Source: Granulicella sp. S156 (GTDB taxonomy: Bacteria > Acidobacteriota > Terriglobia > Terriglobales > Acidobacteriaceae). Taken from it: 64,000 bases of DNA. Made by a program: the position numbers and the translations under genes. Numbering within the stretch: position 1 is the first letter of the stretch; the number at the start of each line of letters is the position of its first letter. Below are positions 4,654 through 48,061 of this stretch, piece by piece. Under the pieces are notes generated by a model. That model saw only the letters and a program-made list of their open reading frames with translations, was not told where the DNA came from and made no database searches. The DNA is taken from contig NZ_LMUH01000009.1 of NCBI RefSeq assembly GCF_009766105.1, positions 1-64,000 of the forward strand, read 5' to 3'.

Positions 4654-5418
4654 ATGCGACTTAGCTTCGTCATACCTGCGTACAACGAAGAAGCCTATCT
4701 GCCGGCGTGTCTGGAGTCCATCCTCGACCAGATCAAAGGTCTCGACAGCCTCACCGAGATCATCGTCGTCAACAACGCCAGCACCGATGCCACTCGCGAA
4801 GTCGCCCTCCGTTACCCCGGCGTCATCGTCGTCGACGAGCCGCGCAAGGGCCTCACCTTCGCTCGTCAGGCCGGCTTTGCCGCCAGCTCCGGCGAGCTCA
4901 TCGCCAACGTCGACTCCGACTCGCGGCTCACGCCCGGCTGGGTCGCCAACGTTCTCTCCGCCTTTGACGCCCAGGTTCCATCCGGTAAGCGCCCACTGGC
5001 CGCCTACTCCGGTCCTATCCTCTACTACGACCTCACACCACGGCAGCGCATTCTCGTCCACGTCTTCTACCTGACGGCATGGACGACTTATGCGATGAAC
5101 CGCTACATCCTGCGCGTGGGTTCGATGGTGCAGGGCGGCAACTTCGTCACTGCTCGCTGGGCACTGGAGGAGATCGGCGGCTTCAATCTTGCGATCAGCT
5201 TCTACGGCGAGGACACCGACATTGCGCGCCGCCTGAACGATGTCGGCGAAGTCCGTTTCACCTTCGACCTGAAGATGTTCTCCTCCGCCCGCCGCCTCAA
5301 GAAGGAAGGCATGTTGACGATGGCCGCAAGGTACTCCATCAACTATCTCTGGACGACCTTCTTCAAGCGCCCCTACACGCACACGCATATCGACATACGC
5401 GAACAGCCTGAAGGCTAG
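4654..5418 (+). CDS. Family 2 glycosyltransferase
   Basis: The 254-residue protein has a GT-A fold typical of family GT2. It has the N-terminal FVIPAYNEEAYLP motif, the nucleotide-binding VVNNASTDATREVA segment, the metal-binding VDSDSR (DxD) motif and a downstream FYGEDTDIARR segment containing the catalytic-base-like ED pair. It transfers an unidentified sugar to an unidentified acceptor, probably in glycan or glycolipid assembly. There are no strong transmembrane helices, so it is likely cytoplasmic or membrane-peripheral. The ATG at 4654 was chosen over an in-frame TTG at 4624 because the GT2 core begins at once (MRLSFVIPAYNEE). It stands alone, followed by two intergenic hairpin repeats. 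Confidence 0.88.
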   Translation: MRLSFVIPAYNEEAYLPACLESILDQIKGLDSLTEIIVVNNASTDATREVALRYPGVIVVDEPRKGLTFARQAGFAASSGELIANVDSDSRLTPGWVANVLSAFDAQVPSGKRPLAAYSGPILYYDLTPRQRILVHVFYLTAWTTYAMNRYILRVGSMVQGGNFVTARWALEEIGGFNLAISFYGEDTDIARRLNDVGEVRFTFDLKMFSSARRLKKEGMLTMAARYSINYLWTTFFKRPYTHTHIDIREQPEG

Positions 5419-5461
5419 GGGCTCCAGGCAACAACATTGCCGATACGAACACCCGCTATCT

Positions 5462-5545
5462 CACACAAAGGTCGCAAAGAAAGCCAAGTTCCGCCACGGG
5501 TACCGTAGCGAAACTTGGCTCTTTTCTTTGCGACCTTTGCGTCAA
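5462..5545. repeat. CAAAGGTCGCAAAG hairpin repeat
   Basis: CAAAGGTCGCAAAGAAA (about 5466-5482) is matched in inverted orientation by TTTCTTTGCGACCTTTG (5523-5539). GCCAAGTT/AACTTGGC lies inside, and GCGTCAAG is the right tail. It belongs to the same style of element as those at 27336, 42166, 53519 and 54784, all with right arms ending in TGCGTCAAG or TGCGTTAA. Confidence 0.8.
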
Positions 5546-5574
5546 GCTGTTGCTTGTTCTTCGAGCTGAAGCTC

Positions 5575-5687
5575 GAGCGGTATCAATGTGAGTGTACCCA
5601 GTGCTACAGGGCTTGACGCCATTTTTTCCCAATAAAAATGGCATTCGCAAGCATTTTCAGAGGGCCAGTGACATTGATACCGCTCTA
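5575..5687. repeat. GAGCGGT-tipped inverted repeat element
   Basis: A perfect 15-bp inverted repeat, GAGCGGTATCAATGT (5575-5589) and ACATTGATACCGCTC (5671-5685), encloses 81 nt. The right tip reads CCGCTCTA, so its minus-strand TAG (5685-5687) is the stop codon of the PHP-family gene. Related elements with a TAGAGCGGTTTCAC tip are at 9885-9934 and 17031-17144, also at 3' ends of minus-strand genes. Confidence 0.85.
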
Positions 5688-6836
5688 AACCAGCTCCAGC
5701 CCTTGCCGCAGATCGTTGACTCCGGGGAATGCCAGGCTGAGCGGGGCAGCGACGCCACGCTTGCCGAACAGACGCACCAGTTTGATCGCCGTCATGATCG
5801 CGGGCGGCGGTGTGCCGCCAACCCAGAGCTGGCTCAACTGCCGCATCTCGCCGTTTTGATCCGGGTGGAAGACGCGATCGTCCCACTTCTGCCAGCCAGG
5901 GAGAAACTGCGGGAAGTCGGTGACAGCATTCAGCGTGGACTGCACAATGCGCTGCTCCCAGCGCTGCTGGTACTGGTCCATGAAGTGGACATGGCTGCGG
6001 CCCTCAACGCGGATCTCTTCGACGAAATCGTTGAAGTTGGTCGCTGTTGTCAGGTTGACGTTTGCGTTTGGCTCCAGCCCGTGCCGGTCGCCGCCCGAGA
6101 TCAGCAGGTACCCGAGTTCGCGGCACAGGCGGCCGACTTCGCGGTTCTCCTGCGCATGGCGCAGCCCGTTCAGCTCCAGGGCGTGGATGCAGTTGCCCAC
6201 CTCGCTCAGGAACCGCAGCATCTCGCTCACGTGCACCGGACCCTTCTTGTGCAGGTCCCAGAGTGGGTGGTTGAACACGATCAGGACATTCGGTTGCTCA
6301 TGCAGTTCGCGCAGCAGCTCGATCAGCCTGGCGTCGTTCGGAGCTACGGTATAGGCCTCGAAGCGGCTCATCCACTCCGTGCCGCTGCCGCTGGGCAGGT
6401 TGTGAATGCCGAGATGAAACACCGTCTGTCCGTAGGGCGCAGACCACTCGACCGACATAGGAATGTGCCGCGACGAGGGCACAGCCCGCAGCAGCAGGGT
6501 GCCTTCGAGTGTGTCGTGGTCCGTGATCGAGACCAGCGGATACAGTCCAAGCCGTTGAATCTGTTTGGCCTCAAGGTCGTACGCCATGCGCGGCTGTAGC
6601 GGCGGACGCCAGTTGGCGCGGTCGAAGTCCAGCTTCACTCCGTAGAGGTTGTAGGCCTTCTTCTCATAGTGAGCCACAACGCGGCCCACTCCGGGCAGCG
6701 CCAATCCCATCGCGTGGATGAAACCCAGCGTCTCCTCCGAACAGCTCGTATGGCTGTGGAGCGAAACGCCTGTCGTAAAGGCTGTAGTGGCTAGCGGCTG
6801 CTTCCAGTTCGTCGAGACTTTTGAATGCGGCTGCAT
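5685..6836 (-). CDS. PHP-domain metal-dependent hydrolase
   Basis: The 383-residue protein carries the spaced metal-binding motifs of the PHP (polymerase and histidinol phosphatase) superfamily: SLHSHTSCS near the N-terminus, SITDHDTLEG around residue 104, a conserved Glu in SVEWS, FNHPLWD, and GGDRHG near residue 260. PHP enzymes are phosphoesterases using two or three metals; the substrate here cannot be inferred. The length exceeds a minimal PHP domain, with an unassigned C-terminal part rich in Trp. Its stop codon TAG is contributed by the tip of the adjacent inverted repeat. It seems monocistronic. Confidence 0.8.
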   Translation of the reverse strand: MQPHSKVSTNWKQPLATTAFTTGVSLHSHTSCSEETLGFIHAMGLALPGVGRVVAHYEKKAYNLYGVKLDFDRANWRPPLQPRMAYDLEAKQIQRLGLYPLVSITDHDTLEGTLLLRAVPSSRHIPMSVEWSAPYGQTVFHLGIHNLPSGSGTEWMSRFEAYTVAPNDARLIELLRELHEQPNVLIVFNHPLWDLHKKGPVHVSEMLRFLSEVGNCIHALELNGLRHAQENREVGRLCRELGYLLISGGDRHGLEPNANVNLTTATNFNDFVEEIRVEGRSHVHFMDQYQQRWEQRIVQSTLNAVTDFPQFLPGWQKWDDRVFHPDQNGEMRQLSQLWVGGTPPPAIMTAIKLVRLFGKRGVAAPLSLAFPGVNDLRQGLELV

Positions 6837-7116
6837 GGTCGCTCCTGGCGGCTATGACATGGTTAGTTCTGCCTAAAGATTGCCAGCCAAATGCGAATGC
6901 ACCGTAATAAGAGCAATAACAGACGTTCAATTTGGCGAAATATGTGCCGAGTTATGTACCCTTTAGCGCAAGTTTCGATTGGAGCGACGCCTCAATGTCT
7001 TCAAAATCCCGCAATTCTTAAGGGAGCATTGCGTTGTCACTCGGTTTCGTCTTTGCAGACCTGTTTATAAATTCCATATCTATAGAGCAGACTGAAATAC
7101 TGTGAGGGGGGACACG

Positions 7117-7926
7117 ATGAAGGGTAAGCAGGCAGTTTTCTTTGTAGTGCTTTTAGTACTCTTCTTTGCCTGCATCTTCAGTCCCTTCTACCTGTCAGAC
7201 GATCCAGCACAAGCCGCAAACAGTGGCCTGCGCAAGGCGTTGATACCTGTACTGCAGGAGTATCGGAGTCTGCAGGCTCAGGCCGCAGCGGGCAAACTCA
7301 GCGGAAAGACAGACCCGGCACTAGCTACAGCGCGACAGCACCTTAACCAGGCAGAACGTTTCGTTCCTCTCTTTGAATCTGAAAATGGAAGGCATGCCAA
7401 TAACCACGCCGAAGGTGCGCTGGATGCGTACGCAAGAAATGTCGAGGACCTGGCCGAGGCAAAGAAATCGATACAAAGTTCACTTGTTGGCGGCGACTCT
7501 ACTTCATCCGGGATAGAACTTACCCAGTCGGCAGATAGAGCTCAACGAGACTTCACCATAGCTTCAAACGCCCTCGCAGAGCCTGCGCACCAGGCCTGGG
7601 GTGTCACCCTTCAGGGCATCTTATTTCCCTTAGGTTTGATGATCCTCCTTCCCAGCATTTTTCTGGTGGGCTTTGGGCCGAGCGCTATGAGAGCACTGCG
7701 TGATCGGGGCATACGGCGAACAGGGGTGCGGATGACGGCCACTGTGATCTCTTCCAGCAAAACAGGGTTGATGGTGAACTATGTGCCGCAATACGAGGTG
7801 ACCGTCCGCCTGCCAACCGGCGACACTACAAAAGTGATACTGCTGGCCTATGCAGGAGCGCCTCCGGGTATGGAGTTGCAAGTGATCGTGGACCCTGCCA
7901 ATCCAAGTAAGGCGGTTGTTGTCTAA
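7117..7926 (+). CDS. Membrane protein with DUF3592-like C-terminal domain
   Basis: The 269-residue product has an N-terminal hydrophobic segment (AVFFVVLLVLFFACIF) followed by about 130 residues rich in Ala, Gln and Glu that look helical. A second transmembrane segment (GILFPLGLMILLPSIFLV) follows. The C-terminal domain starts MTATVISSSKTGLMVNYVPQYEVTV and ends with a VDPANPSKAVVV motif. That last domain resembles DUF3592 proteins, in which a small beta-rich domain follows membrane helices. The function is unknown. The ATG at 7117 has a strong GAGGGGGG Shine-Dalgarno string upstream, so it is preferred over the GTG at 7102. No operon partner is evident. Confidence 0.65.
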   Translation: MKGKQAVFFVVLLVLFFACIFSPFYLSDDPAQAANSGLRKALIPVLQEYRSLQAQAAAGKLSGKTDPALATARQHLNQAERFVPLFESENGRHANNHAEGALDAYARNVEDLAEAKKSIQSSLVGGDSTSSGIELTQSADRAQRDFTIASNALAEPAHQAWGVTLQGILFPLGLMILLPSIFLVGFGPSAMRALRDRGIRRTGVRMTATVISSSKTGLMVNYVPQYEVTVRLPTGDTTKVILLAYAGAPPGMELQVIVDPANPSKAVVV

Positions 7927-44827: not shown

Positions 44828-46174
44828 ATGTCCATCGAAACAAACGCCCCCATCACCACCATCGCCACAATCGGCCAGCACGAAGGCCAGACCATCACCC
44901 TCCGCGGCTGGCTCTATAACCTCCGCTCCTCCGGCAAACTGCTCTTTCCCACCTTCCGCGACGGCTCCGGCACCATCCAGGGCATCGTCCCCAAAGCCGC
45001 CGTGCCGGAAGAGGTCTTCGACACCCTGAAGAACCTCACCCTGGAGTCAAGCGTCGTCGTCACCGGCAAAGTCCGCGCCGACAGCCGCGCGCCCTCCGGC
45101 TTCGAACTCGACGTCGAGAACGTCTCCGTCACCCAGCGCATCGCCGACGACACACCCTACCCCATCTCGCTCAAAGAGCACGGCGTCGACTTCCTCATGG
45201 AACACCGCCACCTCTGGCTGCGCACACCGCGCCAGTCGGCGATCCTGCGCGTACGCGCGACGATTATGCGTGCCGCAGCCGAGTACTTCGACACCAACGG
45301 CTTCATCCGCACCGATCCACCCATCCTCACGCCCAACGCCTGCGAAGGCACAAGTGAATTGTTCGAGATGGACTACTTCGACAACGACAAAGCCTACCTC
45401 ACGCAGTCAGGCCAACTCTACATCGAGGCAACGGCTCTGGCTCTCGGTAAGGTCTACAGCTTCGGCCCCACCTTCCGCGCGGAGAAGTCGAAGACCCGCC
45501 GTCACCTCACGGAATTCTGGATGATCGAACCCGAGGTCACCTACCTCGACCTCGACGGCTTGATGAACCTGGCCGAGGGCTTCCTCACGCACATCGTCAC
45601 CCGCGTACTCGAAACCCACCGCGCAGACCTCAAGGTCATCGGCAAGGATGTCGCAAAGCTGGAGGCTGTCGCCGCGCCAGGTGCATTTCCGCGTCTCTCG
45701 TATGATGAAGCCCACCAGATGCTGGTCGACGCCCACGCCAAGGGTCTGATCGAAAACGTGCACACCTATGGCGACGACTTCGGTTCCCCCGATGAGACCT
45801 ACATCAGCAATCAATTCGACAGGCCGGTCATGGTGCATCGCTATCCGGCCGAGGTCAAAGCCTTCTACATGCAACCCGACCCCAAGGATCCGACCAAGGC
45901 TCTCTGCGTAGATGTGCTCGCGCCTGAAGGCTATGGCGAGATCATCGGCGGCTCGCAGCGCGTGGACAGCTACGACCTGCTCAAGTCCCGCATCGAGCAG
46001 CACAACCTGCCGCTGGCCGCCTTCCAGTGGTACCTCGACCTGCGCAAATACGGCAGCGTCCCGCACTCCGGCTTCGGCATGGGAATCGAGCGCGCTGTGG
46101 CATGGATCTGTGGGCTCGAACACGTGCGTGAGACGATTCCGTTTGCACGTACGCTGAATAGGATCTACCCATAA
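44828..46174 (+). CDS. asnS: Asparaginyl-tRNA synthetase
   Basis: The 448-residue class IIb enzyme has the OB-fold anticodon-binding domain ([30 protein letters not shown]). The catalytic domain has motif 1 ([16 protein letters not shown]), motif 2 ([25 protein letters not shown] in outline) and motif 3 ([13 protein letters not shown]). The TP[11 protein letters not shown] segment fits AsnRS rather than AspRS. It charges tRNA-Asn. It ends 45 nt before the structured RNA segment and could provide read-through transcription into it. Confidence 0.95.
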
Positions 46175-46219
46175 GGCTCGGCTAGTTTTCGCTTGCTCTT
46201 CGCGTGACACAGGCCTATC

Positions 46220-46393
46220 CTAGAGGTCTGACCCTTGTGTTGAGCGTCGTTGTGAGTGGGGGAACCCGCGAACATCGGGCACAATGCAGCTTCGAGGCGA
46301 AAGTCTCGATTGAGCGAACCGGGCCTCACGGTACCTTCGCTGGGCTCAGACCTTAGTTGTCGGATTGGTTGGGTTTACCAACGGGACCTCTAG
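46220..46393 (+). ncRNA. Predicted structured RNA upstream of the reverse transcriptase
   Basis: A 174-nt segment is closed by a perfect 9-bp inverted repeat, CTAGAGGTC (46220-46228) and GACCTCTAG (46385-46393). Inside, in order, are GTGGG-GGAA-CCCGC (46256-46269), CGAGGC-GAAA-GTCTCG (46293-46308), AGCGAA...TTCGCT with an inner CCG/CGG (46313-46341), and GTTGG-GTTTA-CCAAC (46368-46382). TTGTG (46235) can pair with CACAA (46280). Two loops are GNRA tetraloops, which favours a functional RNA. The 5' strand could alternatively pair with GGGCTCAGACCT (46342-46353). The 3' end abuts the RT start at 46397. Caveat: a weak TTGCTC-N17-TATCCT promoter would overlap the 5' strand. Confidence 0.6.
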
Positions 46394-46396
46394 ACA

Positions 46397-47662
46397 GTGG
46401 AAAAGCTACCGATTGAACAAGTGCGAAGTCTGCGGATTCTCGGACGTGCATGGGCAGCTATTCGGCGTAATGCAAAGAGTTCGAAATCTGAAGAGACACG
46501 TGATGCGGTTGCGGCCTTCGAGGCTGACTCGATCGAAAATGTCACTCGAATTCAACGCCAATTGCAGGGCGGTTGGTTCAAGTTTGCGCCAGCTACCGGC
46601 AAAAGAATCCTAAAGAAGAATAAGAAGGACTTTCGTCCACTAGTTATTGCCCCTCTGCCATCGAGAATTGTTCAGCGTGCCATCCACGATGTTTTGGTCA
46701 GCATGCCTAAACTCCAGATGTACATAAAGACACCCCACAGTTTTGGTGGAATTCAAAAAGGACAGGAAAAAGACGAGATAACGGCGGTTCCAGCAGCCAT
46801 TCACAGTGCTCTCGACGCCATCGGAAAGGGCTCGCAATATATTGTCCGTTCTGATATTTCTGACTTCTTTACCAAGATTCCCAAATCGACAATCACCTCG
46901 ATGATCAGCGAAGTTGTGTGCGATGAAGCCTTTATGAAGTTATTTTCAGAGGCCATTAAGGTTGAATTGGAGAATATGGCAAGCTTGAAAAAGCATGCCG
47001 CTGCCTTTCCTATCGAAGATATTGGTGTAGCGCAGGGGAATTCTCTTTCACCATTGCTCGGAAACCTGTATCTTTACGATTTCGATAAAAAACTCAATGA
47101 ATCGACAGATATTCGATGTATTCGCTATATCGATGACTTCATTATCCTGGCTCCGAATAAATCGGCAGCGGAGAACCAGTTTCAAAAAGCACTTGCAATT
47201 CTCAGGAAGCTCGGCCTCAGCGTTTCGGAAAGCAAGACACAACGCAGTACTGCAAAGAAAGGGTTCGAATTTCTCGGTATTGAGCTTTGCAATGGATTAA
47301 TCCGACCAAATAAAGACTCGAGAGATCGGCTAATCAATTCAGTGTCAAGTGTTCTGACCGAAAGCCGAATATGGCTTGAGAATTATGCTGCGACTGGTAT
47401 CTATGATGAAAAATTAGCTTTGTTCAATACCTTCCGCAGAATTAGGGGAATCACGCAAGGTTGGGGAAAACATTACTGGTTCTGTAACGATCGTAACTGC
47501 TTTGCCGTGCTTGATAAGCAAATATCGAGACTTATAAGGAGCTACCTCGCCTCCTATTCCGAAGCACGCAGAAAAGGTGGGGATTCAATCGGCTGGGATC
47601 TCATTGGAATTGGATCGCTCAGTCGTAGTGACAGCACACGTTATTTCGTTTGGCCCACGTGA
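46397..47662 (+). CDS. Free-standing group II-like reverse transcriptase
   Basis: The 421-residue protein is an RNA-dependent DNA polymerase. It has RPLVIAPLPSRIVQRAIHDVL in outline (RT2, residues 80-100), VRSDISDFFTKIP with the catalytic Asp (RT3), VAQGNSLSPLLGNLYLYDFD in outline (RT4, near 211-230), RYIDDFIILA with the YIDD active site (244-247), LGLSVSESKT (RT6) and KGFEFLGIEL (RT7). The thumb-like part has IRGITQGWGKHYWFC, resembling group II intron RTs. There is no endonuclease domain. The GTG start follows an in-frame TAG by one codon and has no Shine-Dalgarno sequence. Base composition is clearly poorer in G+C than its neighbours, suggesting transfer. It may be a UG/DRT-type or G2L-type RT; the class is not resolved. 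Confidence 0.88.
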   Translation: MEKLPIEQVRSLRILGRAWAAIRRNAKSSKSEETRDAVAAFEADSIENVTRIQRQLQGGWFKFAPATGKRILKKNKKDFRPLVIAPLPSRIVQRAIHDVLVSMPKLQMYIKTPHSFGGIQKGQEKDEITAVPAAIHSALDAIGKGSQYIVRSDISDFFTKIPKSTITSMISEVVCDEAFMKLFSEAIKVELENMASLKKHAAAFPIEDIGVAQGNSLSPLLGNLYLYDFDKKLNESTDIRCIRYIDDFIILAPNKSAAENQFQKALAILRKLGLSVSESKTQRSTAKKGFEFLGIELCNGLIRPNKDSRDRLINSVSSVLTESRIWLENYAATGIYDEKLALFNTFRRIRGITQGWGKHYWFCNDRNCFAVLDKQISRLIRSYLASYSEARRKGGDSIGWDLIGIGSLSRSDSTRYFVWPT

Positions 47663-47793: not shown

Positions 47794-47857
47794 GATGTTA
47801 TAGAAACCGCTAGTGTTCATACACCAAAATACGTCAGCCCTACACATTGGAGCCTTT

Positions 47858-48061
47858 GTGCGAACGAGCATTGAAATCGACGACCAACTGATGACCGAGG
47901 CCTTGCGTTTGAGCGGTGAATCCACCAAACGTGCCGTCGTCGAAGTAGCTTTACGTCTGCTTATACAGACGAAAGCCCAAACGGGCATCCGCAAGCTTCA
48001 TGGCAAGATCCAGTGGGAAGGTGATCTTACCGAACTGCGCCGGAGCCGAGTGCGGAACTAA
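47858..48061 (+). CDS. Orphan VapB-type antitoxin
   Basis: The 67-residue protein (GTG 47858) reads RTSIEIDDQLMTEALRLSGE, then TKRAVVEVALRLLI, then RKLHGKIQWEGDLTELR. This is the standard ribbon-helix-helix and tail of the VapB family whose C-terminus GKIxWEGDL wraps a VapC partner. An ATG at 47813 lies upstream in frame but inside non-homologous sequence. The expected toxin gene starts directly after (ATG 48061 overlapping the stop) but ends after 16 codons, so this antitoxin is an orphan here. It might neutralise a toxin encoded elsewhere. Confidence 0.82.
   Translation: MRTSIEIDDQLMTEALRLSGESTKRAVVEVALRLLIQTKAQTGIRKLHGKIQWEGDLTELRRSRVRN

Follow-up and report, generated by a model that had tools for sequence, protein, structure and literature searches.

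A gene for a reverse transcriptase (RT) of 421 amino acids lies at positions 46397..47662 on the forward strand of the DNA analysed here, a stretch of 64,000 nucleotides from Granulicella sp. S156 (contig NZ_LMUH01000009.1, positions 1 to 64,000), hereafter the window. We propose, with a probability of about 40%, that this enzyme is a G2L4-type RT that works with a cis module for RNA-templated gene assembly. In most of the relatives that could be judged, the RT gene is preceded by two nearly identical copies of an element of about 130 bp, termed R, and by a reading frame that appears to be stored in two halves in permuted order. The assembled window holds one copy of R.

Classification of the reverse transcriptase

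The RT gene, recognised as an open reading frame (ORF) and by homology, begins with a GTG codon and encodes a YIDD active site. Its product matches the Pfam family RVT_1 at 7.7e-27. In a phmmer search of the Protein Data Bank (PDB) the best matches were two G2L4 RT structures, at 2.1e-62 (9d5x) and 2.3e-62, followed by the next PDB sequence at 3.7e-15. Residues 8-381 align to 9d5x. Compared as a region, the part that corresponds to the extended RT3a of G2L4 RTs, which in that family has a 9-aa insertion (plug) and conserved arginines, aligns to 9d5x with a two-residue gap only. YIDD is the motif that sets G2L4 RTs apart, according to PMC4244168 and PMC12337344, and it is present in 29 of the 32 family proteins collected in this study; L038, L047 and L048, which form a side branch of the family, have YVDD instead.

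Other families fit less well. The NCBIfam model group_II_RT_mat gave 143.8 bits (cut-off 300), the Drt2 equivalog 48.1 bits (cut-off 390) and Retron_St85 55.8 (cut-off 235), while PADLOC ranked generic RT and RT_UG17 models at the top. Since the best PDB matches are G2L4 RTs, YIDD is present and the group II, retron and DRT models stay far under their cut-offs, the window RT is, judged from its sequence, of the G2L4 type. A mobile group II intron was rejected, because group_II_RT_mat is below its cut-off and no intron RNA was found, the window having no Rfam match at gathering thresholds; a retron was rejected on the Retron_St85 score and the same lack of an Rfam match, and the Drt2 score leaves the enzyme far from DRT2.

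The initial annotation had described a 421-residue RT with YIDD and lower GC, a perfect 9-bp inverted repeat ending 3 nt before its start and two GNRA-capped hairpins, all of which are in the sequence. Its statement that it saw no retron RT hallmarks, no genes of a diversity-generating retroelement (DGR) and no intron 3' domain agrees with the Retron_St85 score, with repeats that show no adenine bias (see below) and with the Rfam result. The group II-like thumb that it reported is borne out weakly (GIIM 15.1 bits, under the cut-off of 23). The statement that the locus fits no known RT system cleanly has to be revised: YIDD and the match to 9d5x place the RT with G2L4 enzymes.

A duplicated module upstream of related RT genes

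DNA upstream of the RT gene was compared in 31 loci, comprising the window, 17 loci from searches of the window's family and first homologue searches, L019 from Pseudomonas aeruginosa and 12 loci from further draws. In 18 of them, L019 included, a direct repeat R1/R2 is located near -540 and -175 relative to the start of the RT gene. The copies are 117-152 bp long (about 130 bp) and 96.6-100% identical in 17 loci; in L015 a run of N splits R. No repeat was found in eight loci (the window, L005, L006, L008, L012, L016, L017 and L047), of which L005 and L012 have other repeats farther upstream and L017 has a truncated RT. Five loci could not be assessed, L003 owing to an N gap inside R and L004, L011, L048 and L055 because they are cut short; L004, though cut short, shows a 23-nt piece of the repeat pair. 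A further locus, L075, recovered by a motif scan, also has the pair (137/138 identical).

The 17 relatives dissected have the same order of parts, P1-R1-C-P2-N-R2-tail-RT, where P1 and P2 are predicted promoters, N and C are the two outer parts of the reading frame described below, and the tail is the 30-68 nt between R2 and the RT gene. The DNA between R1 and R2 is called S, and R1 and R2 lie 352-382 bp apart. Direct repeats of 130 bp should be lost easily; the order R1-C-N-R2 is kept from the Pseudomonas plasmid to the window's own family (L002).

In the 17 double loci without L015, R1 and R2 are exactly identical in eight (L002, L007, L009, L013, L019, L037, L049 and L054), and the other nine pairs differ by 1-3 substitutions, with a common 3-nt indel near the 3' edge in L018, L043 and L044. 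In five more distant pairs of loci R differs by 17-31% (17% for L051/L052, 31% for L037/L054), whereas the two copies inside each of these loci are 98-100% alike. R1 and R2 evolve together, as these comparisons of sequence indicate. In six close pairs of loci R is also far more conserved than the RT gene: the RT and R identities are 71% and 124/125 for L013/L014, 79% and 122/125 for L013/L015, 84% and 143/143 for L018/L043, 78% and 132/132 for L019/L075, 79% and 130/130 for L007/L006, and 78% and 132/133 for L009/L016.

Two near-identical repeats beside an RT, one of them behind its own predicted promoter, recall a DGR, in which R1 RNA would serve as template repeat and its cDNA would overwrite R2, or the reverse. 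We consider such copying highly improbable and reject a DGR, because the few R1/R2 changes are mixed and not adenine-biased, eight of the 17 pairs having none; in addition, no variable-protein target was seen, and the reading frame and promoter layout are unlike those generally described for DGRs.

A separate observation concerns L049, a very divergent double locus in which R1 and R2 are identical over 129 nt and S has no AAAAAC motif.

A permuted reading frame

Frame j was defined, locus by locus, as the longest frame without a stop across R and the adjoining DNA. Its phase relative to a motif AAAAAC (codons xAA AAA C) is the same wherever the motif occurs (16 of 16 loci). Counted in j, j+1 and j+2, N, which extends from the motif to R2, has 0, 18 and 3 stop codons (16 loci). 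Across 17 loci R has 0, 29 and 16, and C, which runs from R1 on into S, has 0, 33 and 46 over its first 105 nt. Because j was chosen as the longest open frame, the independent evidence is the common phase. With the motif alone defining the frame, N, R and C were stop-free in 14 of 14 loci, and dinucleotide shuffles of these loci gave a combined probability of 1e-18 under an assumption of independence that the loci do not satisfy. A test conditioned on kinship, with seven sister pairs (L054 used twice), gave log10 P values for keeping the frame open of -1.2 in N, -2.1 in R and -2.1 in C. Amino-acid similarity is highest in j for N and R.

The reading order of this frame is N-R-C, and the genomic order is R1-C ... 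N-R2. With N located 3' of C, a complete reading would require the two halves to be joined through R; the ORF therefore appears to be stored circularly permuted. A profile of the joined protein matched 21 of 30 RT-bearing genomes and found no contiguous joined copy in these 21; at the RT locus each match covered one half (N-R2 or R1-C) or only R, and there were three partial matches elsewhere (G211:C88, at a contig end, G1259:C73 and G403:C12). The R1-C match extends past the R1 edge into promoter DNA in several genomes, of which G950 and G926 are the clearest cases. The joined ORF ends before the end of S in 12 of 17 loci. No convincing protein family was found for the N-R2, R1-C or joined ORFs, and an AlphaFold model of R1-C was uninformative (mean pLDDT 53.7).

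As an observation on one of these genomes, G211 has an extra R-like piece at the end of contig C88.

Predicted promoters

Promoters were rated with a simple sigma70 score, over 116-177 possible -10 positions in the 124-185 nt flank of the double loci and over 192 positions in the 200 nt upstream of R in single-R loci. In 11 of 17 double loci the top-scoring -10 element has its end 6-12 nt upstream of the R1 edge; for L013 the top site is 17 nt off, and in the remaining five the site at R1 ranks 2 to 4. At single-R loci the P1 site ranks first of 192 in six of the seven tested, the window included, and second in L047. A stricter scan found P1 of L007 and no promoter in the window or L013. R thus scored would begin near a transcription start.

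The second predicted promoter, P2, has the form TTGNCN-15/16-TAGNCT or a similar one and stands 31-40 nt upstream of AAAAAC; it ranks first or second among the sites in S in 15 of the 16 motif-bearing loci, the exception being L038. Another feature of S is a short leader ORF, M-x-x-x-C-K-N-V-P-T-R, with a well-placed Shine-Dalgarno sequence (about 4690-4770 in L013 and 1190-1240 in L007); it overlaps ATGCAAAAACGTGCCAA, a 17-nt motif kept across distant lineages as judged by eye. A frameshift at AAAAAC might link the leader frame to j.

Proposed mechanism

Under the gene-assembly reading, transcription from P1 would yield a terminally redundant RNA of the form R-S-R, that is R1-C-P2-N-R2-tail, with or without the RT gene. 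The RT would start in or near the tail, copy to the 5' end of R1 and run off, and the R1 cDNA would then anneal to R2, either on the same RNA or on a different one, much like the R-to-R strand transfer of retroviruses. Further rounds of copying would give (R-S)n cDNA, followed by a second strand. Each unit would carry P2 and a Shine-Dalgarno-like site before an unbroken N-R-C gene, which P2 would drive. The product would be a small protein whose N-terminus is basic and hydrophobic and for which the chromosome holds no uninterrupted gene. PMC12337344 describes strand annealing and snap-back synthesis for a G2L4 RT, and these activities suit the transfer step. By analogy with neo of DRT2, the joined gene is likely to be a hidden effector made on demand.

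More broadly, and short of probable, G2L4 RTs may drive a second class of hidden genes that arose independently, in which an R-S-R RNA is turned through strand transfer into concatemeric DNA with a whole gene and an internal promoter; the annealing and microhomology activity would then be used in transfer, and DNA repair would be a side effect or a second job.

The upstream element of the Granulicella locus

All parts of the module found in the window lie on the forward strand. P1 is predicted from the promoter score as a sigma70-like TTGCTC-17-TATCCT, with the -35 at 46193-46198 and the -10 at 46216-46221. The single R occupies 46234..46350, has 80% identity to R of L002 and comprises 39 stop-free codons in frame j, with two stops and one in the other two frames; the first stop in j is a TAG at 46354-46356. 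The tail (46351..46396) is a conserved block in a 16-locus alignment. The element as a whole, from about 46234 to 46396, is kept upstream of the RT genes of relatives both in the window's own family and in proteobacterial genomes.

The predicted RNA fold of 46218-46400 has an energy of -78 kcal/mol (z -3.4; 1 of 200 shuffles was as stable) and contains GGAA and GAAA hairpins of the GNRA type. The window's minimum free energy (MFE) structure was tested for covariation on 16 sequences against 500 shuffles. None of the 500 reached the observed paired percentage, number of cells with two-sided changes or covariation score, and the fold was ordinary on two measures, pairs with a two-sided change (36/500) and further pair types (148/500). 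Most of the signal comes from one helix, the hairpin at 46313..46341 in the 3' part of R (helix 4 of the test), in which 92.6% of cells are paired and three pairs show two-sided changes; helices 2 and 5 are poorly kept, with 51% and 40% paired. RNAalifold on the same alignment gave -17.45 kcal/mol, with two-sided change in 8 of 29 pairs. Because this covarying hairpin lies in the 3' part of R, R is, as far as the alignment can tell, also under constraint at the RNA level.

The 9-bp inverted repeat CTAGAGGTC/GACCTCTAG is exact, with its left arm at 46220..46228 and its right arm within the tail at 46385-46393, leaving 3 nt to the start codon. It is weak evidence when taken alone, because 67 of 1000 mononucleotide shuffles of 46175-46396 contain such a pair. 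The left arm also lies mostly upstream of the predicted transcription start, since it overlaps the end of the -10 TATCCT and the predicted start site. The closing stem was rejected as an established conserved RNA feature, as some shuffles match it and its outer columns, being mostly gaps in the other rows of the alignment, say little about its conservation.

The proposal of the initial annotation that a structured RNA is the partner of the RT is thus upheld in part, by the conserved upstream sequence and the helix at 46313-46341; the closing stem adds little to it, and helices 2 and 5 are poorly kept. Its proposal that this RNA is the template survives as a conjecture in more specific form, the element being, in most judged relatives, one of the two copies in a module whose reading frame is split and permuted. 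The collection of homologues with upstream DNA that it recommended revealed the conservation and the one covarying helix, together with a duplication that is invisible in the window.

Single-R loci and recombination

The window form, P1-R-tail-RT only, is either a deletion derivative that arose through R1xR2 or a collapse of the repeat in short-read assembly. On the RT tree (31 rows, L017 excluded) the seven single-R rows need seven changes, and they adjoin double-R sisters (L006/L007, L016/L009 and L008/L010); the other deep clade of the tree has six double-R rows and one not assessable. Such scattered single-R loci are exactly what would be expected if the repeats formed a recombination switch, in which R1 and R2 would undergo homologous recombination or single-strand annealing, releasing an S-R circle with P2-N-R-C and leaving P1-R-tail-RT, the RT being an annealing or repair enzyme that perhaps helps and not a template copier. 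The circle would carry the same joined gene as the concatemer. However, assemblies break at the R1/R2 repeat, with gaps of 100 N inside R of L003 and L015, so that some or all single-R loci may be artefacts. R is moreover still open in j in seven of the eight loci without a visible second copy (the exception is L012, whose RT frame also has a stop), which old deletions need not have kept, and the switch does not explain why R starts at the predicted promoter start site. We regard it as unlikely.

Evidence against a joined gene

A series of observations weighs against gene assembly. Identity of R1 and R2 is also explicable by ordinary gene conversion, and N and C are absent from the assembly of the window. 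The joined profile found nothing in nine of the 30 genomes, among them five known double loci (G736, G807, G1071, G1265 and G1348); because these were missed, its negative result is uninformative for divergent clades. Codon-level signals are uneven. In 12 overlapping pairs of loci, changes by codon position were 109/113/101 in C and 65/51/65 in N, neither with an excess at third positions, and 126/119/167 in R, a mild excess. For C, amino-acid similarity is -0.01 in j and 0.37 in j+1, and the synonymous fraction is 0.142 in j and 0.241 in j+1; for R the latter is 0.162 in j against 0.173, and j is highest for N only. By eye, the sequence around GCTAGTAGCATTTATTTCACGGGCGGG in C forms a conserved motif whose phase is shifted by one base in the clade of L037, L053 and L054, and because of this shift between clades C may also be conserved as DNA or RNA.

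The start of the putative gene raises similar doubt. The well-spaced Shine-Dalgarno sequence and start codon belong, by eye, to a different frame, M-x-x-x-C-K-N-V-P, and frame j has its ATG at 12 of 16 loci, the four without it being L052, L037, L053 and L054; by eye L004 and L015 lack it too. For this reason MQKRAN was dropped as a certain start of the small protein. The length of the R-S unit is not always a multiple of 3, and an endless ORF like neo is for this reason not general. As to priming, no hairpin common to the priming site or tail was found across loci, and pairing between S and the tail was rejected, with 0 to 19 expected pairs and no pattern. The published role of G2L4 RTs is break repair, with microhomology end-joining as its mark, and not defence. 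Finally, all steps of the mechanism beyond the sequence facts are inferred.

Several of these points would be met by an alternative in which no gene is joined. The RNA of R would serve the RT either as a structured cofactor or as a leader, with P1 giving R1 RNA and P2 an mRNA for leader peptide, N-R2 and RT; gene conversion would keep the copies alike, and the open frame would be part coding (N-R2) and part chance. The covarying hairpin, the conservation of R beyond that of the RT gene and the lack of a codon-level signal in C favour it, as does the P. aeruginosa record, which annotates N-R2 as a small hypothetical protein. It leaves unexplained why frame j of C is free of stops throughout the 17 loci when the other two frames hold 33 and 46, and why the R1-C-N-R2 order persists over such distances despite the ease with which repeats are lost. 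We judge this alternative rather unlikely.

Distribution and genomic context

G2L4-type RTs are rare in the genomes drawn. They were found in 4 of 398 genomes in a draw of the window's family (its own genome counted), in 3 of 398 in a phylum draw around G399 (centre counted), in 11 of 328 and 6 of 327 in draws of two families centred on known carriers, and in 1 of 149 and 5 of 149 in two further draws, the last of which overlaps the draw with 11 of 328. Among 72,556 plasmid records one has such an RT, that of P. aeruginosa (L019), whose enzyme is 35% identical to the window RT, matches 9d5x at 2.3e-119 and stands on a different branch of the tree. No viral homologue of the window RT was found in viral_contigs, and none of the L019 RT in viral_contigs (peptide patterns) or in phages. 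The motif scan returned 16 IMG/VR contigs, with an RT visible in the available DNA of L075 only. No DNA match to the L019 upstream module was found in E. coli. On its megaplasmid the L019 RT is followed by genes for a recombinase-family protein (5396-5977) and a TIR-domain protein (6261-7172), and by eye a tRNA-like sequence lies about 0.9 kb upstream of it.

In the window the GC content of the RT region is 0.43-0.46, compared with about 0.60 around it. The ORF upstream of the locus (44828..46174, forward strand) is a host gene, named from its sequence as asnS, encoding asparagine-tRNA ligase. Homology of the window to 11 compared loci of the same genus stops at 46143-46178, at asnS and on one side only, and a clean empty site within the genus was therefore rejected. 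A small ORF right after the RT gene (47813-48061) has by eye the look of a VapB-type antitoxin, without a toxin partner; PADLOC gave no match for it.

The flanks of the other loci were compared with L048 and L055 left out, their upstream DNA being too short. In L016, 149 nt of the upstream gene end (-220..-81 from the assumed R start) are repeated 38-184 nt after the RT stop with 83% identity, possibly an old duplication at insertion. Flank similarities were seen in L016, L009 (inverted), L013 and L049, and long target-site duplications were rejected as a mark of mobility.

Comparison with known systems

The window RT shares YIDD with other G2L4 RTs, and among them L019 of P. aeruginosa has the same R1-S-R2-RT layout. 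PMC12337344 calls G2L4 RTs free-standing proteins, and no upstream module is named in the available text of PMC12337344 and PMC4244168 or, by a term search, in the main text of PMC13015716. More generally, no mention of an upstream repeat or module for G2L4 RTs was found in the literature searched, a partial library without the first G2L4 repair paper. A conserved cis module, present also at the P. aeruginosa relative, would give a G2L4 RT both a template and a product and would change the picture of a free-standing repair enzyme.

In DRT2, an upstream template accompanies the RT, and a permuted ORF and its promoter become complete only in concatemeric cDNA (PMC12039810 and PMC11100668). The module described here is alike in having a putative template beside the RT and a permuted ORF that would be whole only after joining. 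It differs in the RT group, in the joint, which is 130 bp of R1/R2 homology here and a 3-nt ACA jump in DRT2, in having the ORF on the RNA-sense strand, usually with a stop, and in a predicted promoter that is whole within S.

Among other systems, DGRs share a homologous repeat pair beside an RT and differ in that the repeats of the present module lack adenine-biased differences. The R regions of retroviruses and long terminal repeat (LTR) elements resemble R in layout: the repeat starts near the predicted promoter start, recurs downstream in the same predicted transcript and suits strand transfer. Unlike in those elements, no 3' copy was noted after the RT gene and no integrase was seen. Should the joined gene be produced, DRT2 would not be alone in assembling a gene through reverse transcription, and such assembly could use long terminal redundancy in the manner of retroviruses.

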